Shown here one piece after another: positions 10,458 through 60,903 of a DNA stretch of 64,000 nucleotides (its first letter is position 1; each line of letters opens with the position of its first letter). Source of the DNA: Pedobacter roseus. GTDB lineage: Bacteria; Bacteroidota; Bacteroidia; Sphingobacteriales; Sphingobacteriaceae. The stretch spans positions 1,798,001-1,862,000 of the forward strand of contig NZ_CP060723.1 in the NCBI RefSeq assembly GCF_014395225.1, given 5' to 3'. The notes under the pieces were generated by a model. The model made no database searches. It saw only the letters and a list, made by a program, of their open reading frames with translations, and had not been told where the DNA came from. The position numbers and the translations under genes were made by a program.

Positions 10458-13322
10458 ATGAGTTCAAAATTTGAAAAGATTGCTGTTATTGGAATGTCGG
10501 GTAGGTTTCCAGGTGCCGAAAATCTAGACGATTTATACAGGATATTATGTAGTGGAGGAGATGCCGTAAATGAATTGTCTACAAAAAGGAAAGTAGATAC
10601 AACTTTAAATATGAAAGACACTTATACAGTTGGTGGTTTTCTAGAGGATATAGATAAATTTGATTACAACTTTTTTAACTACGCGCCAATTGAAGCAATT
10701 TCAATGGACCCGCACATCAGACTGTCGTTGGAAAACAGTTATCACTGTTTTGAAAATTCAGGATATGCTCCTGAGTTTTTTAAAGGAAGCAATACAATAG
10801 TCGTAAGTTCCGTATCATCTTTAGAATATTATCGTCATGCTGACGAATTCAATTCGTCATTGGTTACCGGGAATACCCCAGCATTTCTCTCTGCGGCAAT
10901 AAGTCGTAAATTTGATTTGAGGGGAAGTTCTATCGTAGTGGACACATCTTGTTCTTCTAGTCTTTCTGCAATACAGATAGCCTGTGACTCGATTAATTTA
11001 GGACGTTCGGATTACGCTCTTGTTGTTAGTACCTGTCTTAACTTATTTCCCAACAAAAACAATGCCCATCCCCTAGGATTGAGTTCAAAAGAGGGCAGAT
11101 CAAGATCATTTTCATACGATGCTGATGGAATGGCACTTGGAGAAGCTGCTGCTGTTTTATTACTTAAGCCACTAGTGAAAGCTTTACGCGATAAAGATAA
11201 TATTCATGCTGTTATTAGAAGCATTGCGGGAAATAACAATGGGAATATGTCCGCAAGCCCTACAGCTCCGGATAGTCTTTCTCAAGCGACGCTACTTCTA
11301 GAATCATGGAGTATGGCGGGTATAGTTCCACGAGATATTGGATTGATAGAAGGGCATGGATCTGGGACCGAACTTGGTGACTCTATCGAAGTTGCAGGTA
11401 TAGACTTAGCATTTAAAAAAAGCATTCAGGACATTCATTTTTGTTCGTTATCTACAATAAAAACTAATATCGGTCATGCAGGAAAGGCATCTGGAATAGC
11501 AGGTTTTATTAAAGCGATCCTGTCGGTGAAAAACGGTAAGCTTTTCAAAAACCTACATTTCACGAAACCCAATCCGTTGATCAATTTTCAAAATTCTGCC
11601 GTTAGAATTCAGGAAAGGCTAGAGGAGTGGTCAACGGCAGAAGATAAGCTCCGAATTGCAGGGGTGAGTTCAATGGGATTAAGTGGTACGAATTATCACT
11701 CGATTATCGAACAGGCACCTCAACGGGAAGACAAAAACAGCGGTAGGCAACAACTCTTGTTCATTTCAGGTACCTCAAAAGCAGCAGTTAGAGGAAAAGT
11801 CAAACAGCTTATTGAGATGAATCTTGATATGGTAAACATACACGATCTTTGCCATACACTGATTGTCGGTCGCGATCATTTTAAGGTAAGAGAAGCAATT
11901 ATTGTTCGTAATAAAAAAGACGTAACAACTTTTTTAAACGAATACATTGAAAATAAGTCCCATTCCCTTCCTTTTGATTGTAAACTGAATCCGGTGTTAC
12001 TATCCCTTCAGCCAGTTAGCTATATTGATAAGGCCAATCTCTTAGCCCACTACCCGTTGTTCAATGAAGTATACAAAAGATGCTTGTCATTCTCTGAGTA
12101 TCCGGAGAACCCAATGGTGTTAGAACTTGCATATGAGTACAGTTTTCTACAGCTTTTAAAACAAACCGGTATCAATGCGAGGACGATCTTGTCAGTTGGG
12201 TTGGGAGACGTTATCTTACAGATAGAAAACGATACTATATCTCTTGCAACGGCATTATCAGTAGTTCATAATGTTGATTATCAGGAGATTAATGATTTGG
12301 AAGTGCGAACGGAGGAAATGTTATTGCGTGAAAAAGAATTCGGATATCCATTTTTTATTGACCTATGTGGCAGCAGCGTTGTAGGGGAAATATTGAAGAA
12401 ACATGATAAATTTGGTGAGGAGTTTACAATAGTAGCAGATCAATTAACCGACCCCTTATTGAACGTTTTACTCCATTGGTATAAGTTGGGTGGTAATTTA
12501 AATTGGTCATACGTTTCGGACTTGAATCCAGGTAACAAGATTGTTTTGCCAGGTTACCCATTTGAGAGGAAACATTGTTGGTTAAGAGAACTACCTAGAA
12601 GTCCAATTACCGAAGCAACTGATACAGTTATTAAAAGTGTCAGCTCTGATATTAATGATATTGAGTCAATCATTTTGAGGGTGTGGGAAGAAGAAGCTAA
12701 ACTTTTTCCTTCAACTAACGAGGATGATTTTTTCGAATTAGGAGGAAGTTCGCTTGCGGCTACAAAAGTAATAATAAGATTGAATTCAATGTTTGAACTC
12801 TCATTAGCTTTTGAAGACATGTTTGATTTTTCAACGGTTGTTAAGCTTACAAAATTTGTCGTTGACAGAATCGATACTTCATTTTACATAAAACAGCTCT
12901 GGAAAAGATATCTCAAAATTGACATTATCAAAGATGATGATGATTTTTTCAGCCTTGGGGGACACTCACTTATCGCTAATAATCTTATAAATGGAGTATG
13001 GAAACAGTTTGGAATCAGGTTAAATTTTGAACATATCTTTACTAATAGAACTTTTGGCGAGTTTGTTTTGCTTATCAAGAATCTTGAGCTTATCCAGAAT
13101 AATAAATCGGAATATATACCAAAGATAAATGTTGGAGAAGAGTCTGTCCTTTCTTCTTCACAACGCCGCCTATGGATACTCGGGCAGTTATTAGTTGGGA
13201 ATACTGCCTATAACATGCCTGGAGTTTATGTTTTCTCCGGAGCACTTGATAGCATGGCACTGTCCCGGAGTTTTCTTTCTCTTCTGGAGCGTCATGAGAT
13301 CCTGCGTACTGTCTTTCGGGGG
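10458..13322 (+). CDS. orf3, 5' part: ketosynthase, degenerate AT, tandem ACPs, start of C domain
   Basis: First part of a hybrid PKS-NRPS gene that continues after a frame break at 13318-13322; the literal frame runs to a stop at 13532. The ketosynthase (residues about 6-425) keeps its triad: Cys165 in DTSCSSS, His300 in EGHGSGT and His340 in NIGHAG. About 320 residues that look like a decayed acyltransferase follow: the expected GHSLG nucleophile box reads SVGLGD with no serine at the active position, while the post-AT linker (LPGYPFERKHCW) is recognisable. Two carrier domains follow in tandem (DDFFELGGSSL near 12730 and DDFFSLGGHSL near 12950), then the start of a condensation domain (SSSQRRLWIL). 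The module therefore needs malonyl supplied by another AT, possibly that of orf4. No ketoreductase is present, so the extension product would stay a beta-ketone unless acted on in trans. Confidence 0.92.
11735..12590 (+). other. Degenerate acyltransferase-like region in orf3
   Basis: This region sits between an intact ketosynthase and the post-AT linker LPGYPFERKHCW. The region that should carry GHSLGE reads SVGLGDVIL (near 12192), with no serine nucleophile, and no GQGxQ or AFHS motif is present. The length (about 280 residues) is close to a normal AT, which argues for decay in place rather than clean loss. Confidence 0.75.
12655..13100 (+). other. Tandem carrier domains in orf3
   Basis: Two consecutive carrier proteins, each with a phosphopantetheine serine: DDFFELGGSSL (near 12722) and DDFFSLGGHSL (near 12945). 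Doubled ACPs in one module are a known way to raise flux in polyketide synthases. Confidence 0.85.
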
Positions 13323-14960
13323 ACGATGAGGGCAATGTGCTCCAAGTGGTTGTCGAACTGGATTTCCTGGGGCTTTCTTTGGTCGAGAGTGACCACCGTG
13401 GATCTGGTCGGGATGCTGTGGATGGTCTCATCGAACTTGACTTTGGTACATCATTCGATCTTTCGTCAGGTCCGCTTCTGCGTGCTCACCTTTACCGTAC
13501 CGGAGATGATGAGTGGGTGTTCACCTATGTGATGCACCACATCATCAGTGATGGCTGGTCGATGGGTATTCTGGTCCGCGAGCTTCTGGATCTTTACAAT
13601 GGCGAGGTTACGGGCATTCCCGCAGATCTTCCGGTGCTTGGCATCCAGTACCGTGACTATGCTGCCTGGGAGCAGTCTAACCTTTCGGGGGATGTTTATG
13701 CCGGGCACCGTGATTACTGGTTGGATCAGCTTTCCGGGGATCTACCCGTTCTTGATCTGTGGAGCGACCGCCCGCGTCCTGCAGTGAAGACCTATACTGG
13801 CGGTGTAGTTCACTGTATACTTGACAGAGAGTTGTCGGATAGCCTCCGTTCGCTGTGCCACCAGAGCGGATCGACGCTTTTCATGGGGCTTCTTTCTGTG
13901 GTGAACATCCTTCTCTACCGTTATAGTGGCCAGGACGATATTATTGTTGGCACGCCGATGGCCGGGCGTGAGCACCCTGACCTTGAGGGCCAGATCGGTT
14001 TCTATGTGAATACGCTTGCGCTCCGGACCCGCCTCAGCGGAAGTAAGAGCTTCCGTGAGGTACTGGGGGATGTGCGTGGGGTCTGCCTTGATGCATATGA
14101 GCACCAGGCCTATCCGTTCGATAAGCTTGTAGAGGAACTTGGCCTGCAGCGGGATATGAGCAGAAACCCTCTGTTCGATGTTGCTGTCGTGTTACAAAAT
14201 ACCGAGGCCGTTTTGGAACGGAATTTTAACGGCCTTCTTGTTTCTAAATATGGTACGAAGGAGTATCAGATCAGCAAGTTTGACCTCACATTTACCTTCT
14301 TTGAGGTAGATGGGGGCATAGCCCTGAATATCGAGTACAACAGCGACTTGTATGATATTACAAGCATCGAGCGGATGTCTGGTCATTTCTGCCTTCTCCT
14401 AGACCAGTTGCTAACCTCTCCTGATGGCGCTTTGGGTGAGGCCGATTATATTGGCCAGGCAGAGCGTGACGTTCTGCTTGGGGAGTTCAATGCCACCTCA
14501 ACAGCCTTTCCATCCAAGCAGACGATCGTGGATCTTTTCGAGGAACAGGTATTGTTGATGGGGGATTCTACAGCTGTTGTTTTCGGCAGCGATCGCATCA
14601 GCTATGCAGAGCTTAACGCCCGTTCGAACCGTCTTGCGCATTATCTTCGTAAAGAGCACGGGATCCGTCGCGGCGAGCTGGTTGGGATCCTTTTGGATCG
14701 CAGCGACTGGATGGTTGTTTCTATTCTTGGTGTATTAAAGTCTGGCGGGGCCTATGTTCCCATTGACCCTGAGTATCCCGCTGATCGGATCGCCTACATA
14801 CTTTCAGACAGTGGCTGCAGGACTGTTATAGACAGTACAGAGCTTTTGCGTTTCTTTCAGGTAATGGGTAGTTTTTCCGCCGCAGATTCAGTAGCTGTAT
14901 GCATTCCTACCGATCTTGCATACGTGATCTATACCTCCGGTTCGACTGGCACACCTAAAG
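13203..14960 (+). repeat. Shell family I, C domain plus front of A domain (orf3 copy)
   Basis: A direct repeat of about 1.75 kb with 26187-27943 in orf7. The copies are almost the same except for a replaced segment (14187-14270 against 27186-27253) at the end of the C domain. Confidence 0.9.
13318..13322 (+). other. Frame break 1 in orf3 (G5, intact copy G6)
   Basis: The same C-domain sequence in orf7 (26301-26306) has six Gs and reads through; here there are five. Adding one G joins both parts of orf3. Confidence 0.9.
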
Positions 14961-16297
14961 GAGTGATGGTCGAGCACCGGAACATGGCGCATCTTGTGAG
15001 GTCGCAAGGGCCTTTGGAACTTAAAGGCAACAAGACTCTACTTTGTACTGCAGGTACATCATTTGATGTTAGTGTTTATGAATACTGGGGTATCCTGGCC
15101 CATGGTGGTCAGCTTGTACTTTGCGGAACCGATATCCTGCTGGAACCAGCGCGTCTTTCCGGCGAAATGATCAGTGAGAATGTCGATACGATGTGGCTGA
15201 CCTCAGGCTGGCTGAATCAGCTGGTAGATTTCGATATCGAGATGTTTGGAAAACTCCGGACACTTATCGCGGGCGGTGATATTCTATCCCCTGACCATAT
15301 CAACAGGCTTGTAGGGAGATATCCTTTATTAAATATAGTAAATGGTTATGGTCCTACAGAGACCACTGTGTTCTCTACATCATTCGCTATTAATGGTGAA
15401 CAAATGGGCAGTATACCAATCGGTCGTCCGATATCGAACAGCCGGGTTTATATAATTGACGGTTTTGGTGGTCTCAGCGGTATCGGTGTCCCGGGGGAGA
15501 TCTGTGTTGGTGGTGCAGGGGTCGCCCGGGGTTACCTTAACCTTCCTGAACTGACTTCATCACGGTTTGTTCCCGACCCTTATTTCCCAGGGGAGCGGAT
15601 GTACCTAACGGGTGACCTTGGCCGTTGGCTTCCTGATGGCAACATCGAGTTCCTTGGCCGTTCTGACGATCAGGTCAAGATCAGGGGCTACCGTGTTGAG
15701 CTGGGCGAGATCGAGAACGTGCTTGTTGGACATCCCGGTATTGAGAGCTGTGTAGCTGCCGTTCGCGGCATCGGTTCGGATCGTGAGCTTGTATGTTACT
15801 TTACCGGCTCTTCTGAGCTTTCCAGCGGGGATCTCCGTTCCTATCTTTCCGGTCTACTTCCATCTTACATGGTGCCCGGGCACTATGTGCTCCTTGCGTC
15901 GCTTCCCCTTACGGGTAACGGAAAGGTGGACCGCCGCGCACTTCCGGACCCTGCGGGACTTGGTGTTTCCACGGGCATGGATTATGTTGCTCCCTCGACA
16001 GATACAGAGCGGGAGCTCGTATCTATCTGGGAAGAGGTGCTCGGCCGTGAGGGAATAGGTGTCAGGGACAATTTCTTCGAACTGGGAGGAGATTCCTTAA
16101 AAATTATAAGGGCAGCTAAACATATGTCTAAACAATTAAACTTTATGATAAAACCAACAGATCTGTTTCAGCATGTAAATATTCGTACAATTGTTGATGA
16201 GCTGTTAAATAAAAGTTCGTCTTATCTAGATGAAGAGATCTCAGCCAACGAACTCCTTTCTAACTTAAATAAGTTCAAAACAAATGAATCCGACTAG
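13318..16297 (+). CDS. orf3, 3' part: C-A-PCP module
   Basis: Continuation of orf3 after the one-base break; the first ATG in this frame is at 13337, but coding similarity resumes at the G run. It holds the rest of an L-accepting condensation domain (MHHIISDGWSMG near 13530), an A domain (about 14480-16000) and a PCP (ELGGDSLK near 16085). Pocket residues read by eye are D-V-Y-W-I-G-G-V-F. This resembles the Val code DAFWIGGTF and shares the unusual core segment TSGWLNQLVD with the two Val domains of orf10, so a branched aliphatic residue is likely but not certain. The last 30 residues (ELLSNLNKF) look like a C-terminal docking helix. The stop overlaps the orf4 start by 14 bp, so translation is probably coupled. 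The C and A shells are near-identical to orf7. Confidence 0.92.
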
Positions 16298-22775: not shown

Positions 22776-25395
22776 ATGGATATTAAAAATTTAGTCCAAA
22801 AAATCAAGGGTAATGGAATCGATCTCTCAGTTGATGGTGACGAACTTCTTGTTAGTTTTGACCAATTTAAAATTCCGTCTCATCTGTTAGCCACCATCAG
22901 GCACTATAAGAAAGAATTAGTAGAGTATCTTACATCTATCCTTGAGTATGAGTCTATTCCAAGGCTTCCAGATCAAGACAGTTATCAATTGTCATTTGCC
23001 CAGAATCGATTATGGATAATGAGCCAATTTTCTGAGGCTGGTTCTGCGTATAATGTATCTGGAGCATATATTTTTACTGGAAAGGTCGATAGCACTGCGC
23101 TTTCCCATAGCTTTTGGTCACTTATAGGCAGACATGAAATATTACGTACAGTTTTCAGAGAAGAACATTTTGGAAATACATGCCAGGTTGTATTGAATCT
23201 GTTTGATATTGCCTTTAGTCTTGGTATTTCTGATTGTAGAATCGATCGAGAAATAGATGGACGTATTAGTAATGACTTCGGTTCCCCTTTTGATCTTTCG
23301 GTAGGTCCGCTTCTGCGTGCCCACCTCTACCGTACAGGTGATGAGGAATGGGTGTTTACTTATGTGATGCACCACATCATCAGCGATGGCTGGTCGATGG
23401 GAATTCTTTTCCGTGAGCTTCTCGAACTTTACAACGGCGAGATTAAGGGTATTCCCATAGAACTTCCCACGTTGGGCATCCAGTATCGGGACTATGCCGC
23501 CTGGGAGCAGTCTAACCTTTCCAGAGATGTTTATGCCGGGCATCGGGATTACTGGCTTGGACAACTTTCCGGAGAACTTCCCGTTCTTGATCTTTGGAGC
23601 CACCGTCCCCGTCCTGCGGTGAAGACTTATAACGGTGGCGTTGTACATGGTATGGTTGAAAAGGATGTATCCGATGGTCTCCGTAACTTATGTCAACAGA
23701 GCGGATCGACGCTTTTTATGGGGCTTCTTTCTGTAGTGAACATCCTTCTCTACCGCTATAGCGGTCAGGATGATCTTATCGTTGGCACTCCGATGGCTGG
23801 CCGTGAGCACCCTGACCTTGAGGGCCAGATCGGTTTCTATGTGAACACGGTTGCACTCCGTACACGTCTCAACGGGAGCGAGAGCTTCCGTGATATTTTG
23901 GGACATGTGCGTGGTGTCTGCCTTGATGCATATGAGCATCAGGCTTATCCTTTCGATAAACTTGTAGAGGAACTTGGAATAAAGCACAACATGGGGCGCA
24001 ATCCCTTGTTCGATGTTCAGGTAATACTAGATGTTGATGTAAAAAGTTTTTCTGTGCATGGTTTTGAAGATTTCTTAGTTGCAAATTACCATCTATCTAA
24101 GGAAACTTCCATCTTTGATTTGGTCTTTAGTTTCTCTGTAATTGAGAATGCTATAAAATTGACACTTAGATACAACAGTGATCTTTACGATTTTGCGAGC
24201 ATCGAGCGAATGTCATCCCATTTCTTTGTTCTCCTTGACCAGCTGGTAACCTGTCCAGATGCTGCTGTAGGGTCGGCTAATTATGTTAGCGATGTGGAGC
24301 ATAGCATTATTCTTGAGAAGTTTAATGCTATCTCAACAGCCTATCCTTCCGAAGAGACAGTTATGAGCCTTTTCGAGAAACAGGTATTGCTGAGGGGGGA
24401 GTCTCCGGCTGTTGTTTTTGGCGGAGATCAGCTCAGCTATGCAGAACTTAACGCCTATTCGAACCGTCTTGCGCATTACCTTCGGAATGAGCACGCGATC
24501 TGTGGCGGCGAGCTGGTTGGGATCCTGCTGGATCGCAGCGACTGGATGATTGTTTCTATCCTTGGTGTATTAAAGTCTGGCGGTGCCTATGTTCCCATTG
24601 ACCCTGAGTATCCCTCTGAACGGATTGCCTATATGCTCTCGGACAGCGGGTGCCGCCTATTACTGACCCAGACGGCACATATGTTCGTTCTTGAGGGTTA
24701 CCAAGGTGAGCTTTTTGCCGTTGACCTCCAACTGTCTTGTCTGTCGACTCCCTCTTTAAACCCTTTTGTAACCTGTGCTCCTACGGACCTTGCATATGTT
24801 ATCTATACCTCGGGCTCAACGGGCGCCCCTAAGGGGGTGATGATCGAGCACAGGGGGGTCGCCAATACGATCTTGGGTCAGCAGGCTTTTTTTGGCATAA
24901 AACCAGGAGAGGCTGGCCTTCAGTTTGCCTCCGCTTCATTTGATGCCTCTGTTTCAGAAATATTCATTATCCTGTGCAGCGGGGCTACACTTTATATAGT
25001 TGAGGATTCTGTAAAGCAGAATCCTGTGCTTTTCTGTGAATACCTTTCATCCAATTCGATAGATATACTGACACTTCCGCCATCTTATTTGCATCTTCTT
25101 GATTTCGACAAAATCGGGACTGTTAGGAAACTTATAACTGCTGGCGAACCTGCAATCATATCGGATGCATCACGTTTTTTCCAACAGGGTAAATATTATA
25201 ATGCATATGGCCCCACGGAATGCAGTATCTGTGTAACGATGTTTGAACTGAACAACAATTCTGGTTTCGAGAAATTTGTTCCTATCGGTCGTCCGATATC
25301 GAACAGCCGGGTTTATATAATTGACGGTTTTGGTGGTCTCAGCGGTATCGGTGTACCGGGGGAGATCTGTGTTGGTGGTGCAGGGGTCGCCCGGG
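22776..25395 (+). CDS. orf7, part 1: docking domain-C-A (front)
   Basis: First part of a two-module NRPS gene (22776-29255) broken by three missing bases; the literal frame stops at 25418. The first 60 residues form a TubC-type N-terminal docking domain (KIKGNGIDLSVDGDELLV pattern), then an L-accepting condensation domain (about 22980-24250; MHHIISDGWSMG) and an A domain up to motif a6. Pocket residues by eye are D-A-S-T-I-A-A-I-C, close to the GrsA Phe code DAWTIAAIC with Ser for Trp at 239, so Phe or Tyr is likely. The C-domain end (about 24030-24170) differs from all other copies in the window. No strong ribosome-binding site precedes the ATG, which is usual for Bacteroidota. Confidence 0.93.
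25393..25395 (+). other. Frame break 3 in orf7 (G3, intact copies G4)
   Basis: At motif a6 (VARGYLN) the copies in orf1 and orf3 read GCCCGGGGTTACC; here one G is missing. Confidence 0.9.
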
Positions 25396-27547
25396 TTACC
25401 TTAACCTTCCTGAACTGACCTTATCACGGTTTGTTCCCGACCCTTATTTCCCAGGGGAGCGGATGTACCTAACGGGTGACCTTGGCCGTTGGCTTCCTGA
25501 TGGCAACATCGAGTTCCTTGGCCGTTCTGACGATCAAGTCAAGATCAGGGGCTACCGTGTTGAGCTGGGCGAGATCGAGAACGTGCTTGTTGGACATCCC
25601 GGTATTGAGAGCTGTGTTGCTGCCGTTCGCGGCATCGGTTCGGATCGTGAGCTTGTATGTTACTTTACCGGCTCTTCTGAGCTTTCCAGCGGGGATCTCC
25701 GTTCCTATCTTTCCGGTCTACTTCCATCTTACATGGTGCCCGGGCACTATGTGCTCCTTGCATCGCTTCCCCTTACGGGTAACGGAAAGGTGGACCGCCG
25801 TGCACTTCCGGACCCTGCGGGACTTGGTGTTTCCACGGGCATGGATTATGTTGCTCCCTCGACAGATATAGAGCGGGAGCTGGTATCTATCTGGGAAGAG
25901 GTGCTCGGCCGTGAGGGCATAGGTGTCATGGACAATTTTTTCGAGCTCGGGGGACACAGCCTTAAGGCTGTGCTGCTAAGCGGGCAAATACACAGAAGAA
26001 CGGGCATCAAGATCGGTCTGGGAGATCTTTTCGGGCATCCAGTCCTTGCGCACCAGGCCATATTGTTATCTGAGGATATGAATATGCCGCACATTCCGAT
26101 CCGTAGGATTGAGAAAACGGGTAGTTATCTACTCTCTTCATCCCAGCGCCGCCTATGGATAATAAGTCAGATAACGAATGCGGACGTTGCCTATAACATG
26201 CCTGGAGCCTATGTTTTCTCCGGAGCACTTGATAGCATGGCACTGTCCCGGAGTTTTCTTTCTCTTCTGGAGCGTCATGAGATCCTGCGTACTGTCTTTC
26301 GGGGGGACGATGAGGGCAATGTGCTCCAAGTGGTTGTCGAACTGGATTTCCTGGGGCTTTCTTTGGTCGAGAGTGACCACCGTGGATCTGGTCGGGATGC
26401 TGTGGATGGTCTCATCGAACTTGACTTTGGTACATCATTCGATCTTTCGTCAGGTCCGCTTCTGCGTGCTCACCTTTACCGTACCGGAGATGATGAGTGG
26501 GTGTTCACCTATGTGATGCACCACATCATCAGTGATGGCTGGTCGATGGGTATTCTGGTCCGCGAGCTTCTGGATCTTTACAATGGCGAGGTTACGGGCA
26601 TTCCCGCAGATCTTCCGGTGCTTGGCATCCAGTACCGTGACTATGCTGCCTGGGAGCAGTCTAACCTTTCGGGGGATGTTTATGCCGGGCACCGTGATTA
26701 CTGGTTGGATCAGCTTTCCGGGGATCTACCCGTTCTTGATCTGTGGAGCGACCGCCCGCGTCCTGCAGTGAAGACCTATACTGGCGGTGTAGTTCACTGT
26801 ATACTTGACAGAGAGTTGTCGGATAGCCTCCGTTCGCTGTGCCACCAGAGCGGATCGACGCTTTTCATGGGGCTTCTTTCTGTGGTGAACATCCTTCTCT
26901 ACCGTTATAGTGGCCAGGACGATATTATTGTTGGCACGCCGATGGCCGGGCGTGAGCACCCTGACCTTGAGGGCCAGATCGGTTTCTATGTGAATACGCT
27001 TGCGCTCCGGACCCGCCTCAGCGGAAGTAAGAGCTTCCGTGAGGTACTGGGGGATGTGCGTGGGGTCTGCCTTGATGCATATGAGCACCAGGCCTATCCG
27101 TTCGATAAGCTTGTAGAGGAACTTGGCCTGCAGCGGGATATGAGCAGAAACCCTCTGTTCGATGTTGCTGTCGTGTTACAAAATACCGATTCTCCGGCCG
27201 GTAGCGGCATTCCTGGGATTACGGTTTCGGCGTACCAGGCAGGCCAGACGACAATCAGCAAGTTTGACCTCACATTTACCTTCTTTGAGGTAGATGGCGG
27301 CATAGCCCTGAATATCGAGTATAACAGCGACTTGTATGATATTATAAGCATCGAGCGGATGTCTGGTCATTTCTGCCTTCTCCTTGGCCAGTTGCTAACC
27401 TCTCCTGATGGCGCTGTGGGTGAGGCCGATTATATTGGCCAGGCAGAGCGTGACGTTCTGCTTGGGGAGTTCAATGCCACCTCAACAGCCTTTCCATCCG
27501 AGCAGACGATCGTGGATCTTTTCGAGGAACAGGTATTGTTGATGGGG
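25393..27547 (+). CDS. orf7, part 2: A (back)-PCP-C-A (start)
   Basis: Continuation of orf7; the first ATG in this frame is at 25463. It contains motifs a7-a10 of the first A domain, a PCP with its serine at 25958 (ELGGHSLK), a complete L-accepting condensation domain (about 26115-27420; MHHIISDGWSMG near 26514) and the first residues of the second A domain. From about 26187 the sequence is almost the same as 13203 onward in orf3, apart from a replaced segment at 27186-27253. The frame is lost again at the G run 27544-27547. The literal frame stops at 27721. Confidence 0.92.
27544..27547 (+). other. Frame break 4 in orf7 (G4, intact copy G5)
   Basis: The copy in orf3 (14560-14564) has five Gs and is in frame. 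Confidence 0.9.
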
Positions 27548-28828
27548 ATTCTACAGCTGTTGTTTTCGGCAGCGATCGCATCAGCTATGCAGAGCTTAAC
27601 GCCCGTTCGAACCGTCTTGCGCATTATCTTCGTAAAGAGCACGGGATCCGTCGCGGCGAGCTGGTTGGGATCCTTTTGGATCGCAGCGACTGGATGGTTG
27701 TTTCTATTCTTGGTGTATTAAAGTCTGGCGGGGCCTATGTTCCCATTGACCCTGAGTATCCCGCTGATCGGATCGCCTACATACTTTCAGACAGTGGCTG
27801 CAGGACTGTTATAGACAGTACAGAGCTTTTGCGTTTCTTTCAGGTAATGGATAGTTTTTCCGCCGCAGATTCAGTAGCTATATGCATTCCTACCGATCTT
27901 GCATACGTGATCTATACCTCCGGTTCGACTGGCACACCTAAAGGAGTAATGATCGAACATAAGGGCGTTGCTAATACAATCTTTGCTCAGCAGGCTTTCT
28001 TTGATATAAAGCAAAAGGAAGCAGGACTTCAGTTTGCTTCTGCTTCGTTTGATGCCTCTGTTTCAGAAATATTCATTATCCTATGCAGCGGAGGAGTACT
28101 TTATATAGTGAATGAAGCAGCCAAGCGGAACCCTATCTTATTTTCTGAGTATCTCTCTATCAACGCAATTGAAGTAATGACACTCCCCCCATCATATTTA
28201 CACCTTCTCGATTTTAACAAAATACGGACCATTAAGAAACTTATAACTGCTGGCGAACCTGCGATTATACCAGATGCATTAAATTTTTCAAAGTATGGTA
28301 AATATTATAATGCATATGGTCCAACCGAGTGTAGCATTTGTGTAACTATGTCAGTTATAGAAGACGGAGATAATTTCGATGGACCGATTCCTATCGGTCG
28401 TCCGATATCGAACAGCCGTGTTTATATACTTGACGTTTCGGGCCATCTTTGCGGTATCGGCATTCCGGGTGAGATCTGTGTTTCCGGTGCGGGGCTAGCG
28501 CGGGGCTACCTTAACCGTCCCGAGCTGACTGCGGAGCGTTTTGTTCCGAACCCTTATCTGGCTGGGGAGCTGATGTACCTTACGGGTGACATCGGCCGCT
28601 GGCTGGCTGACGGTAACATTGAGTTCCTGGGGCGTGCTGATGACCAGGTGAAGGTCCGTGGTTACCGGATCGAGCTTGGGGAGATCGAGAGTGTTCTCCA
28701 GGGTCATGCGGATGTTGATTCGTGTGTTGTGGTTGCGCGTGAGAACAGTTCGGGGGATAAGGACCTTATCGCTTATGTGGTGGGTTCGGAAGGCCTTGAC
28801 GTATCGGTCCTGCGGGGCTACCTTGGGG
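27544..28828 (+). CDS. orf7, part 3: second A domain (chimeric shell)
   Basis: Bulk of the second A domain of orf7; the first ATG in this frame is at 27676 and the literal stop at 28887. Pocket residues by eye are again D-A-S-T-I-A-A-I-C, so this module probably loads the same kind of aromatic residue as module 1. The front of the domain (to about 27945) matches shell family I, shared with orf3. The back (from about 28386, SNSRVYILDVSGHLCGIG) matches shell family II, shared with orf9 and orf10. The junction between families lies within or beside the core. The frame is lost at the G run 28825-28828. Confidence 0.92.
28825..28828 (+). other. Frame break 5 in orf7 (G4, intact copies G5)
   Basis: The copies in orf9 and orf10 read CCTTGGGGGCAT; one G is missing here, at the same site as break 12. 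Confidence 0.9.
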
Positions 28829-29255
28829 CATCCTTCCCCAGTACATGGTTCCCGGCCACTATGTGGGGCTTGCCTCTCTTCCGCTGACGCCAAACGGTAA
28901 GGTGGACCGCCGTTCCCTTCCGGATCCAGAGAGGCTTGAGCTTGGCAGCGGGAGGGAGTATATTGCTCCGCGCACAGAGACGGAGCGTGCACTGGTTTCG
29001 ATCTGGCAGGATGTACTTGGAAAGGAGGGGATTGGGGTAAAAGACAACTTCTTCGAGCTTGGGGGAAATAGCTTAAGTATACTCAAAATAATTATTAAGT
29101 TGAGGAACAGATTTAGGATAGAAGTAAATTTTAATGAAATTCTTGTGTATCCAGTTTTAGATGAATTTGCACGAAAAATTGAAATTCAGTTTTGGTTGAA
29201 GAATACTAACGATACCAATAGTTTAACTTCTGATAATGAACGATTCATATTTTAA
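28825..29255 (+). CDS. orf7, part 4: end of A domain and PCP
   Basis: Last part of orf7; the first ATG in this frame is at 28845. It holds A motif a10 (NGKVDRRSLPDP), whose lysine completes the pocket, and a PCP with its serine at 29070 (ELGGNSLS). The protein ends in an acidic then hydrophobic tail (DNERFIF), the form expected of a short C-terminal motif that binds a TubC-type docking domain. orf8, which starts 49 bp later, begins with such a domain. No thioesterase is present. Confidence 0.92.
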
Positions 29256-29303: not shown

Positions 29304-32300
29304 ATGATAAGAAATAATATTGATGGGATAGAAGAAATTTTGCAGACCTTAAAATCATTGAATGCAATTGTATCTGTAAGCGAAGGGCGGTTGATCGTAG
29401 ATGCGAAAGCTGGAGTAATTAATCAGGATTTGAAATTCCGTATCAATAAATATAAGCTACTGCTAATTGAACATATTCTCAAAGCCCAAAAGGATTCTTT
29501 TTCTGTCATTTCCGCTGTTCCCGGATCTGGTTCTTATGCTTTGTCATCGTCCCAGCGCCGATTATGGATATTGAGCCAGTTTCCTGAGGCGAATGTGGCA
29601 TACAATATGCCCGGTGTTTATGTTTTCAGCGGTTCGGTGAACGCGGATGGTCTTTTTCACAGTTTTTCACAGCTGCAGGAGCGGCATGAGATCCTGCGTA
29701 CGGTTTTCCGGGAGGATGGTGAGGGTGTTGTCCGTCAGGTCGTTCTTACTTCGTCTGAGAGCGGTTTCTTTCTTGAGCAGCGGGACCTTCAGGGAAAAGA
29801 TGCTTCTTTTGTCGATTCGGTTGTTGAGTCCGATTTTGTTCGTCCCTTTGATCTTTCGTCAGGCCCTCTTTTCCGGGCTGGTCTTTACCGTGTATCGCAG
29901 GACCGCTGGGTCTTCACCTATGTGATGCACCATATCATAAGCGATGGCTGGAGCATGGGTATACTTATCCGTGAGCTTCTTTCTCTCTACAACAGTTATG
30001 TTCTTGGTGAAGAGAACGCTTTGCCTCCCTTGCGTATCCAGTACCGGGATTACGCCGCCTGGCAGCAGGCCGAGTTGTCGGGTTCCCGTTATGAGGAACA
30101 CCGTTCCTACTGGCTGGACCATCTGTCGGGTGAGCTTCCTGTTCTTGAGCTCTTAGGTGGCCGAGCCCGCCCATCGGTAAAGACATACAATGGTGGTGTT
30201 GTACACCGTATGCTCGGTTCAGATCTGAGCAGTGGCCTGAGATCTTTGAGCCAGGAACGGGGCGCTACGCTTTTCATGGGCCTACTGGCGTGCGTTAATG
30301 TTCTGCTATACCGCTACAGCGGCCAGAGCGATCTGATCATAGGTACGCCTATGGCCGGTCGTGAGCATTCTGACCTTGAGGACCAGATCGGTTTCTATGT
30401 GAATACGGTAGCACTACGGAGCCGTTTTTCGGGTTCGGACAGTTTTCTTGAACTGGTTGACCATGTCCGTGGGGTAAGCCTTGGGGCCTATGAGCACCAG
30501 GCCTATCCGTTCGATGAGCTGCTGGAAGAACTTCACCTGCAGCGTGACATGAGCAGAAGTCCCCTGTTTGATGTTCAGGTTGTCTTAAATGAAATCAAAG
30601 AAGAAAACAGAAATCTTTCTGAGCTAAATGTCGAAAAATACGACGTAAGCTTGAAAACGAGTCGGTTTGATATTGTTTTTAGTTTTGTCGATAACAATGA
30701 GAAGTTAGGATTAAGTATTGTCTACAACAGTGACATTTATGATGAGCCGGCGATGTTGCGTATGTCCGGCCATTTTGAGCATCTCCTTTCCGGCCTGCTG
30801 TCCAGTCCAGATGCTCCCGTTGGGGATATTGATTACCTTGGTACTGTGGAGCGTTCGCTGTTATTGGGGGATTTCAATTCGACAGGTTCAGACTATCCGC
30901 GGGACCGCAGTATAGTTGATCTTTTCGAGGAGCAGGTTCTGCTCTGCCCCGAGCATACAGCAGTAGTTTTTGGTTCAGTGCGTCTGAGCTACAGCGAACT
31001 GAACATGCTTTCCAACCGTCTTGCCCATTATCTCCGGGAGGTCCATGGCATCGGTGCGGGCGATCTTGTGGGAATCCTTCAGGACCGCAGTGATTTGCTG
31101 ATCGTTTCTATTCTGGGTGTTCTTAAATCTGGAGGGGCCTATGTTCCCATCGACCCTGACTATCCCCGGGATCGGATTGATTACATGCTAAAGGAAACAA
31201 ACCCCAAAACCCTTCTCACGCAGACCGAATATGTCTTTGGTCTGGAGTCTTTTCCGGGCGAACTTTTCGCTGTCGATATCCAGCTGTCAGGTCTGGATAC
31301 CTCGGCAGAGAACCCTGTAGGAGTTTCTGGGGCTGATGACCTTGCGTATGTGATCTACACTTCGGGTTCGACCGGAACCCCAAAAGGTGTAATGATTGAA
31401 CATGGAGCTTTGGTTGATCTATCGGTTTGGCAGAAAAAATATTTTAATTTAAAAATTGGAAATAGGATATCTCAAATGGGGTCATTGAGTTTCGATGCAT
31501 CCGTTGGAGAAATCATAATGTCACTTACTAATGGATGTGAACTAATTATTATTGAAAATCGTGAATTCTTTAATCTGATAAACATTATAAACGAACATAA
31601 TATTGATATTGTTGTAACAGTTCCATCCTTGCTAAAACAATTAAATCCGCGTGAATTGTATACTAATCCCAAAATCATATCTGTTGGTGAAAAATGTTCG
31701 GCAGAACTGTTTAATGCCTGGAAAAATAATTGTTATTTTATAAACGGCTATGGGCCGACGGAATATACTGTTTACTCACATGTATGGCATGGTGAGGTAG
31801 GCGTTGATACTGTGCCCATTGGGAAACCTAGGTTTAACCTTAAAACCTATATTTTAGATCCATATTTGAACTTGGCCCCTATTAACGCATATGGTGGAAT
31901 CTATTTAAGTGGACCAGGTGTTGCAAGAGGTTATTTTAATGATACAGAGAAAACTTTTAAAGCATTTATACCAAATTATTTCTATTTAAACGAAATATGT
32001 TTTGATAAGGATGAGCTTGTTCAGGAAATAGCTTTACGTTCAATAAATGTATCTAAAGCTACAGAGACAATCAATTTAGTGAATAAACTGATTGAAACTA
32101 ATACTGTTGAAGAAGTTATTTCGGACGTTAGACATTGCTTTGATCATGAATTAAGAGAGAAAACCCTACAAATTATTAGAGAAAACTTTCACGATGAGGA
32201 ATTCAAACAGGGGTTTATAAGATACTATTACGAAGGAAAACTAAACAATTATCATTCTGAAGGAATTACATGGGATTTGTTACAAAAAATCCTAGGTGTT

Positions 32301-33386
32301 ACATTATCGACATCATCAAAGATTGTTGACCTAGGATGTGGAAATGGAGAATTATTGATAAACATCCAAAAACATGGATTTAAAAATATTGTAGGTATTG
32401 ATACTAACCCCTTCTTTGTCCAAAATTTATTAGGAAAAGATATTAATTGTATTAGTTCTAGAATAGATTGTAAGTCAAACGATTTTTTTTCTCAGAAAGG
32501 GTTAACTCATGCTTCTTTTGACGTTGTTGTTAGTATACTAACTTTAGATAGAGTACAATATCCCTTAAATTTAATTCAAAACATGTCTTTATTGCTTAGA
32601 GAAGGCGGTGAATTTATTTTAGGAACATTATTGCCGGTAATAGAATTTGAAGATGGACTGGATCAAAGTATTGATAGGTATACAAGAAAAGAAAATAAGA
32701 TTTCCCCCGGCAACAATGAAAGAGAAGATAAATATTATCTCCTTGCTACTTTAATCGATTTTGATATTAATGATATACAGATTCATAAAATAAAGAATAC
32801 CGTTCAAAGCAAGAATGGTTTGCAGGATTATACACTACATGTTTTTCATGGAACTAAAAAGAAAAATCCCTTCACCAAGGATTATAATAGGATGTACCTT
32901 ACAGGTGATATCGGCCGCTGGCTGCCTGACGGTAACATTGAGTTCCTGGGACGTGCTGATGACCAGGTGAAGGTCCGTGGTTACCGGATCGAGCTTGGGG
33001 AGATCGAGAATGTTCTCCAGAGGCATGCGGATATTGATTCGTGCGTGGTGGTTGCTCGTGAGAACAGTTCGGGGGATAAGGACCTTATCGCTTATATGGT
33101 GGGTTCGGATGGTCTTGATGTATCGGCTCTCCGGGGCTACCTTACGGGCATCCTTCCCCAGTACATGGTTCCCGGTCATTATGTTCGTCTGTCCACGCTC
33201 CCGCTGACTTCGAATGGTAAGGTGGACCGCCGTTCCCTTCCGGATCCAGAGGGGCTTGAGCTTGGCAGCGGGAGGGAGTATGTTGCTCCGCACACAGAGA
33301 CGGAGCGTGCACTGGTTTCGATCTGGCAGGATGTACTTGGAAAGGAGGGGATTGGGGTAAAAGACAGCTTTTTCGAACTTGGGGGG
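29304..33386 (+). CDS. orf8, part 1: docking-C-A with inserted methyltransferase-PCP start
   Basis: First part of a two-module NRPS gene (29304-36797). It starts with a TubC-type docking domain (residues about 8-60), then an L-accepting condensation domain (about 29530-30850; MHHIISDGWSMG) and an A domain from about 30880. Pocket residues by eye are D-A-G-V-I-V-G-V-Y, which I cannot assign. After motif a6 (SGPGVARGYF) about 300 residues of methyltransferase intervene, and the A domain resumes at a7 (MYLTGDIGRW, 32892). Motifs a8-a10 and the start of a PCP follow (FFELGG). The core plus methyltransferase (about 31391-32887) is AT-rich and sits between GC-richer shells. The frame is lost at the G run 33381-33386; the literal stop is at 33395. 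Confidence 0.92.
29533..30590 (+). repeat. Shell family II, C domain (copy 1 of 5)
   Basis: About 1.05 kb encoding the C domain from YALSSSQRRLW to DMSRSPLFDV. Near-identical copies start at 37088, 44536, 47663 and 55303. The sequence diverges abruptly after PLFDV. Confidence 0.92.
30799..31390 (+). repeat. Shell family II, front of A domain (copy 1 of 7)
   Basis: About 0.5-0.6 kb from SSPDAPVGDIDYL to the a3 loop. Other copies start near 38355, 45817, 48935, 53434, 56583 and 61090, whichever kind of C domain precedes them. Confidence 0.9.
31985..32880 (+). other. Class I SAM methyltransferase domain inserted between A motifs a6 and a7
   Basis: SAM-binding motif I is VDLGCGNGELL at about 32325, followed by VGIDTNPFF (motif acidic residue) and SFDVVVSILTLDRV. 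The insertion follows SGPGVARGYF (a6) and ends just before YLTGDIGRW (a7). Residues upstream of motif I (about 31990-32290) look helical and resemble no A-domain sequence. It probably methylates the residue held on the adjoining PCP; whether the target is nitrogen, carbon or oxygen cannot be told from what is visible. Confidence 0.85.
33381..33386 (+). other. Frame break 6 in orf8 (G6, intact copy G7)
   Basis: The orf9 copy (40062-40068) has seven Gs. The break falls just before the PCP serine, so without correction the first PCP of orf8 is lost. Confidence 0.9.
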
Positions 33387-33466
33387 ATTCTATAAAGATC
33401 CTGCGAATGATAAGTGAGTTTCGTAATGCCATGCATATTGATCTGAACATATCAGAAGTTTACAAA

Positions 33467-36878: not shown

Positions 36879-39800
36879 ATGGTGAAAGAACTTCTAACTA
36901 AACTAAAAAGTCATAATGTTTTGCTGAAATTAGTAAACGATGAACTGATTGTTAAATTTCCTAAAGGAAAAACTAGTGCATCTTTGATAAACGAAATTAA
37001 GAATAACAAACAAAATATCATTCAGTATTTGTTAGCTACGTATACATATTCTGATACAAAAATTCCAAAGATTGACTTTCAAACTAATTCTTATGCTTTG
37101 TCATCGTCCCAGCGCCGATTATGGATATTGAGCCAGTTTCCTGAGGCGAATGTGGCATACAATATGCCCGGTGTTTATATTTTCAGCGGTTCGGTGAACG
37201 CGGATGGTCTTTTTCACAGTTTTTCACAGCTGCAGGAGCGGCATGAGATCCTGCGTACGGTTTTCCGGGAGGATGGTGAGGGTGTTGTCCGTCAGGTCGT
37301 TCTTACTTCGTCTGAGAGCGGTTTCTTTCTTGAGCAGCGGGACCTTCAGGGAAAAGATGCTTCTTTTGTCGATTCGGTTGTTGAGTCCGATTTTGTTCGT
37401 CCCTTTGATCTTTCGTCAGGCCCTCTTTTCCGGGCTGGTCTTTACCGTGTATCGCAGGACCGCTGGGTCTTCACCTATGTGATGCACCATATCATAAGCG
37501 ATGGCTGGAGCATGGGTATACTTATCCGTGAGCTTCTTTCTCTCTACAACAGTTATGTTCTTGGTGAAGAGAACGCTTTGCCTCCCTTGCGTATCCAGTA
37601 CCGGGATTACGCCGCCTGGCAGCAGGCCGAATTGTCGGGTTCCCGTTATGAGGAACACCGTTCCTACTGGCTGGACCATCTGTCGGGTGAGCTTCCAGTT
37701 CTTGAGCTCTTAGGCGGCCGAGCCCGCCCATCGGTAAAGACATACAATGGTGGTGTTGTACACCGTATGCTGGGTTCAGATCTGAGCAGTGGCCTGAGAT
37801 CTTTGAGCCAGGAACGGGGCGCTACGCTTTTCATGGGCCTACTGGCATGCGTTAATGTTCTGCTATACCGCTACAGCGGCCAGAGCGATCTGATCATAGG
37901 TACGCCTATGGCCGGTCGTGAGCATTCTGACCTTGAGGACCAGATCGGTTTCTATGTGAATACGGTAGCACTACGGAGCCGTTTTTCGGGTTCGGACAGT
38001 TTTCTTGAACTGGTTGACCATGTCCGTGGGGTAAGCCTTGGGGCCTATGAGCACCAGGCCTATCCGTTCGATGAGCTGCTGGAAGAACTTCACCTGCAGC
38101 GTGACATGAGCAGAAGTCCCCTGTTTGATGTTCAGGTTGTCTTAAATGAAATCAAAGAAGAAAACAGGAATCTTTCTGAGCTAAATGTAGAAAAATACGA
38201 TGTAAGCTTGAAAACGAGTCGGTTTGATATTGTTTTTAGTTTTGTCGATAACAATGAGAAGTTAGGATTAAGTATTGTCTACAACAGTGACATTTATGAT
38301 GAGCCGGCGATGTTGCGTATGTCCGGCCATTTTGAGCATCTCCTTTCCGGCCTGCTGTCCAGTCCAGATGCTCCCGTTGGGGATATTGATTATCTTGGTA
38401 CTGTGGAGCGTTCGCTGTTATTGGGGGATTTCAATTCGACAGGTTCAGACTATCCGCGGGACCGCAGTATAGTTGATCTTTTCGAGGAGCAGGTTCTGCT
38501 CTGCCCCGAGCATACAGCAGTAGTTTATGGTTCAGCGCGTCTGAGCTACAGCGAACTGAACATGCTTTCCAACCGTCTTGCCCATTATCTCCGGGAGGTC
38601 CATGGCATCGGTGCGGGCGATCTTGTGGGGATCCTTCAGGACCGCAGTGATTTGCTGATCGTTTCTATTCTGGGTGTTCTTAAATCTGGAGGGGCCTATG
38701 TTCCCATCGACCCTGACTATCCCCGGGATCGGATTGATTACATGCTAAAGGATAGTGGATGCGGAATCCTTCTCACGCAGACCGAATATGTCTTTGGTCT
38801 GGAGTCTTTTCCGGGCGAACTTTTCGCTGTCGATATCCAGCTATCTGGTCTGGATACCTCGGCAGAAAACCCTGTAGGAGTTTCTGGGGCTGATGACCTT
38901 GCGTATGTGATCTACACTTCGGGTTCCACGGGAATCCCAAAGGGTGTAATGATTGAACATGGAGCTATTGTAAATACAATTTTAAGCCAAATAAAGACAT
39001 TTAAGATTAAGGCAAAAGCTTCGGGGATTCAGTTCGCTTCATCGTCGTTTGATGCTTCTGTTTCAGAGATATTTATTATACTGACATCGGGTGGAACCCT
39101 TTTTGTTGTCGAAGAGGTCACTAAATTGGACCCGTCATTATTTGAAGATTATCTTCAGGTCAATGTGATTGATATTCTAACCCTTCCACCATCTTACCTT
39201 CGATTGCTTAATTTGGATAAAATCAAAACTCTCGATACATTAATTTCTGCTGGTGAATCCGCAGATTTACAAGATGCTAAAGAATTTTCGAAATACGGAA
39301 ACTATTTCAATGCCTATGGCCCAACTGAGTGTAGTATTTGTGTTTCAGTATTTAAAGTTATAGATAAACTCACTAATGTTCGCTTAATTCCTATCGGGCG
39401 TCCTATTTCAAACAGCCGTGTTTATATACTTGACGTTTCGGGCCATCTTTGCGGTATCGGCATTCCGGGTGAGATCTGTGTTTCCGGTGCAGGACTAGCG
39501 CGGGGCTACCTTAACCGTCCCGAGCTGACTGCGGAGCGTTTTGTTCCGAACCCTTATCTGGCTGGGGAGCTGATGTACCTTACGGGTGACATCGGCCGCT
39601 GGCTGGCTGACGGTAACATTGAGTTCCTGGGGCGTGCTGATGACCAGGTGAAGGTCCGTGGTTACCGGATCGAGCTTGGGGAGATCGAGAGTGTTCTCCA
39701 GGGTCATGCGGATGTTGATTCGTGTGTTGTGGTTGCGCGTGAGAACAGTTCGGGGGATAAGGACCTTATCGCTTATGTGGTGGGTTCGGAAGGCCTTGAC

Positions 39801-44330: not shown

Positions 44331-46183
44331 AGAACGCAATTGACTTGATTTTAAAATTAGCCCAAAATAACATTTCTATCTTTCTTGAAGGTGGACGGCT
44401 AAAAATTCACACACACGAGAATTCTGTAGATGATCTGATCAGGAAAGAGGTGTTGCTATACAGAGAAGAGCTAATCAATTATCTTTCAACTCATACAGTT
44501 GATACAAAAATTCCAAAGATTGACTTTCAAACTGGTTCTTATGCTTTGTCATCGTCCCAGCGCCGATTATGGATATTGAGCCAGTTTCCTGAGGCGAATG
44601 TGGCATACAATATGCCCGGTGTTTATGTTTTCAGCGGTTCGGTGAACGCGGATGGTCTTTTTCACAGTTTTTCACAGCTGCAGGAGCGGCATGAGATCCT
44701 GCGTACGGTTTTCCGGGAGGATGGTGAGGGTGTTGTCCGTCAGGTCGTTCTTACTTCGTCTGAGAGCGGTTTCTTTCTTGAGCAGCGGGACCTTCAGGGA
44801 AAAGATGCTTCTTTTGTCGATTCGGTTGTTGAGTCCGATTTTGTTCGTCCCTTTGATCTTTCGTCAGGCCCTCTTTTCCGGGCTGGTCTTTACCGTGTAT
44901 CGCAGGACCGCTGGGTCTTCACCTATGTGATGCACCATATCATAAGCGATGGCTGGAGCATGGGTATACTTATCCGTGAGCTTCTTTCTCTCTACAACAG
45001 TTATGTTCTTGGTGAAGAGAACGCTTTGCCTCCCTTGCGTATCCAGTACCGGGATTACGCCGCCTGGCAGCAGGCCGAGTTGTCGGGTTCCCGTTATGAG
45101 GAACACCGTTCCTACTGGCTGGACCATCTGTCGGGTGAGCTTCCTGTTCTTGAGCTCTTAGGTGGCCGAGCCCGCCCATCGGTAAAGACATACAATGGTG
45201 GTGTTGTACACCGTATGCTCGGTTCAGATCTGAGCAGTGGCCTGAGATCTTTGAGCCAGGAACGGGGCGCTACGCTTTTCATGGGCCTACTGGCGTGCGT
45301 TAATGTTCTGCTATACCGCTACAGCGGCCAGAGCGATCTGATCATAGGTACGCCTATGGCCGGTCGTGAGCATTCTGACCTTGAGGACCAGATCGGTTTC
45401 TATGTGAATACGGTAGCACTACGGAGCCGTTTTTCGGGTTCGGACAGTTTTCTTGAACTGGTTGACCATGTCCGTGGGGTAAGCCTTGGGGCCTATGAGC
45501 ACCAGGCCTATCCGTTCGATGAGCTGCTGGAAGAACTTCACCTGCAGCGTGACATGAGCAGAAGTCCCCTGTTTGATGTTATGGTGGTTCTTAGTAATGA
45601 TGGACAGGTTTCGAAAACTAGAGAAAAGCCTAATGGTTTTTTAGTAGATTCATATAAGCCAATAAAAAACATCATCAGCAAGTTTGATTTGCAATTTAGT
45701 TTTTCAGAATTATCGGATGGCATTGCTTTTAATCTTGAATACAACAGTGACATTTATGATGAGCCGGCGATGTTGCGTATGACTGGCCATTTTGAGCATC
45801 TCCTTTCCGGCCTGCTGTCCAGTCCGGATGCTCCCGTTGGGGATATTGATTACCTTGGTACTGTGGAGCGTTCGCTGTTATTGGGGGATTTCAATTCGAC
45901 AGGTTCAGACTATCCGCGGGACCGCAGTATAGTTGATCTTTTCGAGGAGCAGGTTCTGCTCTGCCCCGAGCATACAGCAGTAGTTTTTGGTTCAGTGCGT
46001 CTGAGCTACAGCGAACTGAACATGCTTTCCAACCGTCTTGCCCATTATCTCCGGGAGGTCCATGGCATCGGTGCGGGCGATCTTGTGGGGATCCTTCAGG
46101 ACCGCAGTGATTTGCTGATCGTTTCTATTCTGGGTGTTCTTAAATCTGGAGGGGCCTATGTTCCCATCGACCCTGACTATCCC
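44327..46183 (+). CDS. orf10, part 1: docking-C-A (front)
   Basis: Start of the largest gene in the window, which runs past base 64000 and is broken four times. It opens with a TubC-type docking domain (LAQNNISIFLEGGRLKI) overlapping the orf9 stop by 4 bp. The condensation domain of module 1 (about 44535-45860; MHHIISDGWSMG) has a unique end segment (about 45585-45740). The front of the first A domain follows. Its frame is lost at the C run 46181-46183; the literal stop is at 46207. The shell is near-identical to the copies in orf8 and orf9. Confidence 0.93.
46181..46183 (+). other. Frame break 9 in orf10 (C3, intact copies C4)
   Basis: At the DYPRDRIDY segment the other copies read CTATCCCCGGG; one C is missing here. 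Confidence 0.9.
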
Positions 46184-60600: not shown

Positions 60601-60719
60601 ATAACAATACTGATGATGTTGTTTTCGGTTCGGTCGTATCGGGCCGTCCGGCAGATATAGAGGGGATTGAGGATATGGTTGGGCTATTTAGCAACACGAT
60701 CCCGGTAAGGGTCCGTGCC
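48601..60719 (+). CDS. orf10, part 3: end C-A-PCP-E / C-A-PCP / C-A-PCP-E / C
   Basis: The longest unbroken stretch of orf10; the first ATG is at 48678 and the literal stop at 60749. Module 2: A domain with pocket D-G-F-L-F-G-L-T-L (unassigned, hydrophobic), PCP (serine 50664), epimerization domain (50800-52130; HHLVVDG, EGHGRE). Module 3: D-accepting condensation domain (SHHHILMDG near 52574), A domain D-G-T-K-V-G-H-V-G (Asp/Asn-like, same as the second A of orf1), PCP (55137). Module 4: L-accepting condensation domain, A domain D-L-T-K-I-G-E-V-G (Asn code), PCP (58320), epimerization domain. Module 5 begins with a D-accepting condensation domain. The condensation subtypes agree with the placement of the epimerization domains. 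The 3.3-kb segments 49952-53248 and 57608-60903 look identical by eye apart from one missing C. Confidence 0.95.
49952..53248 (+). repeat. 3.3-kb A(back)-PCP-E-C repeat, copy 1
   Basis: Matches 57608-60903 at an offset of 7656 bp. I saw no difference other than the missing C at 60718. The match ends abruptly at a short replaced segment near the C-domain end. Confidence 0.9.
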
Positions 60720-60903
60720 GTGGCGGGATGTGCTTCCGGGATCTGCTGAAAGAGGTTCAGCAGGAGGCGATTTCCGGGATGGAACACCATTATGTTCAAC
60801 TGGCAGAAATCCAGTCTTTGTCTGGGGTTGGGGGAGCTCTTTTCGACCATATACTGGTATTCGAAAACTACCCCGTACAGGAAATTATTTCCCAGGGACA
60901 AGA
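57608..60903 (+). repeat. 3.3-kb A(back)-PCP-E-C repeat, copy 2
   Basis: Second copy of the block at 49952-53248. Its first 1.9 kb also recurs at 62079-64000, where the window ends. Confidence 0.9.
60718..60719 (+). other. Frame break 11 in orf10 (C2, intact copy C3)
   Basis: The otherwise matching copy near 53062 reads GTGCCCGTGG; one C is missing here. Confidence 0.9.

Follow-up and report, generated by a model that had tools for sequence, protein, structure and literature searches.

Mosaic structure of an adenylation domain in a giant NRPS/PKS assembly line of Pedobacter roseus

Many adenylation (A) domains of a giant NRPS/PKS assembly line in Pedobacter roseus share nearly identical front and back parts (shells) that fall into two families, I and II. 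The A domain at 27.5 kb begins as family I and ends as family II, which raises the question of how such a hybrid came about, and whether it records one crossover event, as the original prediction had it. The window, that is, the whole 64,000-nt stretch of DNA from 1,798,001 to 1,862,000 of the 6.33-Mb contig NZ_CP060723.1, contains most of the line. Together with 20-kb flanks on each side, 104 kb were analyzed, and the A domains of the line extend from approximately 1.78 to 1.872 Mb. Coordinates are given as window positions, all features described are on the forward (+) strand, and modules are named by the kb coordinate of the A domain (m14.5, etc.); these names may vary by approximately 0.1 (m14.4 is m14.5, and m38.4 is m38.5). 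Of 22 A domains listed in the 104-kb line, 21 were aligned, and the identity of the focal m27.5 to the 20 others was followed in 50-bp steps. The one domain left out is interrupted by an insertion near −6.4 kb and does not enter into any analysis based on the alignment; trees and tests also omit an incomplete A domain at −16.5 kb and the 26-column fragment m43.9. In the interrupted domain (approximately −6.5 to −3.9 kb; L009), the additional sequence is about 1 kb long and keeps a single frame open, and it may represent an inserted tailoring domain. Another A domain, at 29304–33392, harbors an inserted methyltransferase domain, and the portion beyond is family II-like, with 89.6% identity to m27.5.

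The m27.5 domain is the second A domain of the NRPS gene orf7 (22776–29252), which has the order C-A-T-C-A-T (Pfam Condensation, AMP-binding, AMP-binding_C, and PP-binding) and is spread over three frames in the ORF table, with breaks of the reading frame at 25325–25415, 27454–27718, and 28800–28884. A profile search identified m27.5 as an NRPS A domain (PF00501, 8.1e-57, at 27676–28884) with a Condensation domain upstream and a T domain downstream (PP-binding, 1.7e-12, at 28989–29174). Three comparators were of particular use, namely m14.5 (14537–15538), the family I A domain that is nearest to the front of m27.5; m24.4 (24372–25394), which has a family I back, is nearest to the core of m27.5, and is itself frame-broken; and m38.5 (38481–39512), which has a family II front and back and a core within the m27.5 clade.

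The m27.5 domain does not form a single open reading frame, as two frame breaks fall within it. Because codon columns past the second break are out of frame, the back was judged by DNA tracts and without codon identities. Seven frame breaks were counted in the NRPS genes of the window, including the three of orf7 and those at 13298–13529, 46177–46204, 60692–60746, and 62500–62584. All seven are located in tracts that have a paralogue at an identity of at least 95%, and these tracts together cover 49% of the window. In one relative (G019), the 12 A domains detected were all unbroken. The breaks are probably unpolished indels in repeats; a loss of function or decay is possible.

Parts and edges of the m27.5 domain

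The end part of the C domain that precedes m27.5 (26844–27189) belongs to family I and is 100% identical to the m14.5 module. The front of the A domain (27544–27947) is also of family I, reaches slightly beyond motif A3 (the lysine of which is K205, one of the engineered swap points considered below), and is 99.5% identical to m14.5, with two mismatches in 404 nt (at 27851 and 27880) and a 4-column gap at 27540–27543. At 27948 the identity to m14.5 collapses, and mismatches are dense from there onward. The following substrate-pocket core (27948–28387) belongs to neither family. Its nearest relative is m24.4 (76% DNA identity), followed by m38.5 (61%). Across eight 50-bp steps (27944–28343), the identity was 62–94% to m24.4, 50–74% to m38.5, and approximately 20–60% to the others, and it decreased to 52% (m24.4) and 40% (m38.5) in the last step ahead of the back. 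The pocket code of m24.4, m27.5, and m38.5, read by eye at the GrsA pocket positions, is DASSIAAIC in all three.

Behind the core lies a 23-nt remnant of a family I back (28388–28410), an assignment that was read from four third-position sites. At all four diagnostic sites (28398, 28404, 28407, and 28410), m27.5 contains the bases of m7.0, m14.5, and m24.4, from which all nine aligned family II domains differ. This four-site haplotype was absent from the other 17 aligned modules, including m2.6, the family I tract of which begins later. The remnant is followed by 8 nt that are common to both families (28411–28418) and that constitute the interval of the I-to-II join, between motifs A5 and A6 (motifs located by eye). 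The bases at 28419 and 28429 are those of family II, and the family II back (28419–29065) comprises the end of Acore, Asub, and approximately the first two fifths of the T domain. From 28411 to approximately 29065, the back of m27.5 was 97.5–99.5% identical to family II by tract, and with all nine family II domains of the alignment (m38.5, m45.9, m49.1, m53.6, m56.7, m61.2, m65.7, m70.1, and m73.3) the shared tract started at 28411. The first 414 nt (up to 28824) were best matched by m38.5 (99.5%). Behind the join, families I and II differ at approximately one quarter of the bases. A maximum chi-square test of 801 sites that distinguish I from II yielded a value of 467, against a permutation maximum of 19.7 (n = 1000); its single best break falls at 27945/27948, since neither parent accounts for the core.

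The m27.5 domain is therefore a mosaic in which a family I front is followed by a core that predates both flanks, then by the short family I remnant, and finally by a family II back. Sliding identity over the 21 A domains agrees with the chimeric shell that had been proposed, and the join lies beside the core, as predicted, on its downstream side. The edges are abrupt in both tract and diagnostic-site mapping, and the gradual change that would have spoken against a chimera was not seen. On the other hand, the division into two parts held for the ends only, since the domain consists of three parts and a remnant, with a core that comes from neither the 14.5-kb nor the 38.5-kb domain. Likewise, the proposed alignment to the 14.5- and 38.4-kb domains does reveal the switch but leaves out the 24.4-kb A domain, the best parent for the core.

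Two sister families and the history of the mosaic

Along the line, fronts are ordered as four of family I followed by nine of family II (p = 0.0014 under random order), and backs as four of family I followed by ten of family II (p = 0.001), or eleven (p = 0.0007) if the back of m30.9 (89.6% identical) is counted. The predicted arrangement of family I upstream and family II downstream has no exception among the shell-bearing modules, and modules with neither shell are interspersed among them. Family I backs are 98.5–99.6% alike by tract, and family II tracts 97.5–100%. The tract edges vary by module. Many pairs of fronts end at a variable stretch (27767–27856) and others between 27902 and 27959, whereas the starts of back tracts include 28315, 28355–28360, 28376, 28387, 28390–28393, 28411, and 28436. 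The line thus contains the bounded tracts with module-specific edges that characterize concerted evolution, and such edges imply numerous separate exchanges. In some cases, entire domains have recently been duplicated (m56.7/m73.3 and m45.9/m61.2). The identity between m56.7 and m73.3 (L010) is 1.000 over 2156 aligned positions, core included, which represents a recent duplication of a whole segment as opposed to the shell-only homogenization elsewhere. The A domains at approximately −12.8 and −9.7 kb (L009), which are 100% identical over 1545 aligned positions, also resemble a recent duplication.

Trees were constructed with FastTree (LG) for the front (244 leaves), back (241), and core (232); the front and back trees included sequences from the own genome, from five relatives, and from another 74 loci, with two loci (L012 and L014) omitted as copies of genomes already present. 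Families I and II together formed one clade in both the front (support 0.983) and the back tree (0.985), and on this phylogeny they are sister shells. Family II alone had a support of 0.328 in the back tree, in which few differences were left after identical proteins had been collapsed. A join of two unrelated lines was rejected as the main reading in view of the single I + II clade, and also because the protein identity between the families (m14.4 vs. m56.6: 63% front and 69% back) exceeds that of the best matches in other genomes (54–59% front and 60–65% back for the six domains examined).

The core clade of m24.4, m27.5, and m38.4 had a support of 0.995 among 232 leaves, so that the nearest relatives of the core in the tree are two modules of its own line and not another genome. 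In protein-tree distances, the front of m27.5 was 0.03 from m14.4 and the back 0.01–0.08 from family II members, whereas the core was 0.37 from m24.4 and 0.79 from m38.4. Judged by these distances, the core predates both flanks, which have been renewed. Furthermore, the front was only 76% identical to m24.4 at the DNA level, compared with 99.5% to m14.5 by tract. Because front, core, and back differ in age, no fewer than two separate exchanges are required, and the single crossover event of the original prediction does not hold.

No parental form or close relative of m27.5 was detected among 145 genomes of the genus, for each of which the best two candidate places were scored. A match at 1e-20 was present in 15 of the 145 genomes, including the own one, and outside the latter the top identity was 82% over 120 nt (best two places per genome). 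Matches occurred in 2685 plasmid records, and all but one were below 60% protein identity.

Taken together, m27.5 probably owes its present form to homologous recombination among modules within a single assembly line, with gene conversion as the most likely process. The history may have begun with a duplicate of the preceding m24.4, or an ancestor common to both, with family I flanking the core on both sides. The core would then have diverged, as unlike sequences recombine poorly and a change of core would alter the amino acid used. Later, an m14.5-like copy would have overwritten the front, and a family II copy, initially best matched by m38.5, the back from 28411 onward. The family I remnant implies that, prior to the arrival of family II, the back attached to the core was of family I. 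Throughout, divergence and selection on the amino acid used would have protected the core, and m27.5 is predicted to use the same amino acid as the m24.4 and m38.5 modules.

Homogenization of modules was also observed in relatives, where paralogues within a genome were more alike than orthologues between genomes for one module pair in three relatives, in other, orthologous lines of 12 modules. Modules 7 and 10 were 94, 98, and 99% alike (front, core, and back) in G013, and 87, 96, and 90% alike in G024, compared with 71–78% between the module 7/10 orthologues of these two genomes. In G023, the two modules were 98–100% alike and 78–86% alike to the G013 orthologues. Most other modules of these 12-module lines fell short of 95% homogenization.

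A single crossover at 28411–28418 that joined two sub-lines of one parent, one homogenized to family I and the other to family II, is an unlikely alternative to gene conversion within the line. It would explain the perfect order of I and II and the one sharp join, and the similarity of the front to m14.5 would then be ordinary homogenization within the family I half. All shell-bearing modules downstream of the join in this one genome are of family II, and a single crossover would give the same. However, neighbor-biased gene conversion predicts an identical order, the two sub-lines would need to have arisen as sister copies since I and II are sister families, and the front, which differs by 0.5% from m14.5 by tract but by 24% from m24.4, needs a recent exchange of its own.

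Less likely still is a classic core swap, in which a foreign core was inserted into an existing I/II hybrid shell and changed the amino acid. Exchange of the core is the usual direction in the available text of Baunach et al. (2021; PMC8097286), and the core of m27.5 does differ sharply from its shells. However, a family I remnant between core and back would be unexpected if the core had arrived last, and the core is older than both flanks with its nearest relatives in its own line. The newly arrived pocket core that marks the cases of Baunach et al. (2021) is therefore not what m27.5 contains, its core being the oldest part and adjoined by the remnant. Finally, a misassembly of long identical repeats is very improbable, for although all seven frame breaks of the window are in tracts with paralogues of at least 95% identity, which suggests unpolished repeats where mis-joins occur, a repeat-driven mis-join is expected inside shared sequence while both edges here adjoin the unique core, and it could switch which I or II copy is attached but not create an I-core-II arrangement.

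GC composition of homogenized segments

Across m27.5, the GC content at third codon positions (GC3) dropped from 0.46 in the family I front to 0.32 in the core and then rose to 0.58 in the family II back, and along the line homogenized NRPS shells reached a GC3 of up to 0.59, with cores near 0.3. Twenty 20-kb stretches spaced along the genome had a GC content of 36–41%, and their 242 ORFs had a mean GC3 of 0.38 and a maximum of 0.55. Within the 104-kb line, the GC content climbed from 36.6 to 59% with the number of near-identical copies. Two counter-examples were noted: the region at approximately 4251–6750 has no close paralogue yet a GC content of 42–53%, and the A domains at −12.8 and −9.7 kb are not GC-rich despite their 100% identity.

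For a comparison across the genus, segments were considered homogenized at an identity of at least 95% to another copy in the genome (each family counted once) and unhomogenized if the best match was below 85%, within the same segment type and genome. Fifteen genomes of the genus were read in part, with some NRPS clusters per genome taken from among the matches listed; five gave no comparison. GC3 was higher in homogenized segments in all ten comparable genomes and in 42 of 44 strata (Wilcoxon p = 0.002; clusters among the matches listed), and the difference was positive for A domains in 10/10 and for C domains in 6/6 genomes (clusters among the matches listed). Among domains that contained both kinds of segment, 14 of 15 were positive (one by 0.001), ten of the 15 being from this genome and sharing shells. 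First and second codon positions were also elevated in GC in homogenized segments. When each homogenized family was paired with its nearest unhomogenized relative, 14 of 17 fronts and 15 of 18 backs were positive, and the same pairing for cores showed no clear effect (14 of 21, p = 0.20). In an NRPS line of a relative (G153, C1: 3190001–3290000; L140–L144), 17 of 20 A domains belonged to homogenized families, with the same GC pattern, and this line would make a suitable second system. Outside the genus, 12 larger clusters from among the matches listed were read and eight were comparable, of which seven were positive but with small differences (p = 0.11). Pelosinus was negative in 6/6 strata, and Tenacibaculum reached just +0.014 despite up to six copies. 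Short loci outside the genus were positive in 2/8, and pooling them with six genomes of the genus resulted in p = 0.135.

The association between homogenization and GC is thus strong within the genus and weak outside it. One tentative explanation is that gene conversion in the genus is GC-biased, in which case converted NRPS segments may have gained GC while the protected core kept the low GC content of the host. The pattern may also reflect shells that were GC-rich when inherited, or a more frequent recombination of GC-rich DNA. Lassalle and colleagues, in 2015, reportedly argued for such a bias in gene conversion. In the accessible open-licence literature, no paper was found on NRPS evolution by biased gene conversion, and the available text of a preprint on gene conversion in M. 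tuberculosis names GC bias once.

Relation to known recombination of adenylation domains

Recombination of A domains, with hot spots near A2–A4 and A5, and concerted evolution of NRPS have been described in the accessible portions of published studies (PMC8097286, PMC7486941, PMC9205934, PMC4256081), and m27.5 is a clean further case of both. As in the available sections of Baunach et al. (2021; PMC8097286), the edges of the exchanged parts in Acore are near conserved motifs, the C-A linker is kept, and Asub stays with the start of the T domain. In contrast to the usual case in those sections, in which the pocket part of Acore is exchanged and Asub is untouched, the end of Acore, Asub, and the start of the T domain came into m27.5 and the pocket stayed. 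One exception given there, BP 18, had Asub exchanged together with much of Acore and part of the T domain. Intragenomic recombination of A domains was likewise read by sliding identity in the wollamide and desotamide lines, in the text available from Booth et al. (2022; PMC9205934); however, the replaced part there extended from A2 to A5/A6, included the pocket, and changed the substrate, whereas the substrate of m27.5 is predicted to be unchanged. The homogenization of NRPS/PKS domains within clusters by internal recombination, described in the accessible part of Medema et al. (2014; PMC4256081), was based on trees of whole domains, while m27.5 alternates homogenized and protected parts within one domain.

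The edges of m27.5 also lie near two engineered subdomain swap points, among those quoted in the available text of PMC7486941 (Cruesemann, K205/A322; Kries, T221/I352). The front edge is slightly beyond motif A3, and the second edge falls at approximately GrsA residue 354–355, as obtained by range arithmetic on 1amu without residue alignment. In that text, the authors' own partial swaps yielded no visible pyoverdine, whereas nature used similar edges in m27.5, as known here from sequence. The domain thus shows, in a single place, natural cut sites of an A domain and the order of the cuts. It also shows that Asub and the beginning of the T domain can be replaced from another module without a change of the pocket, and its edges bear on where NRPS engineers may cut.
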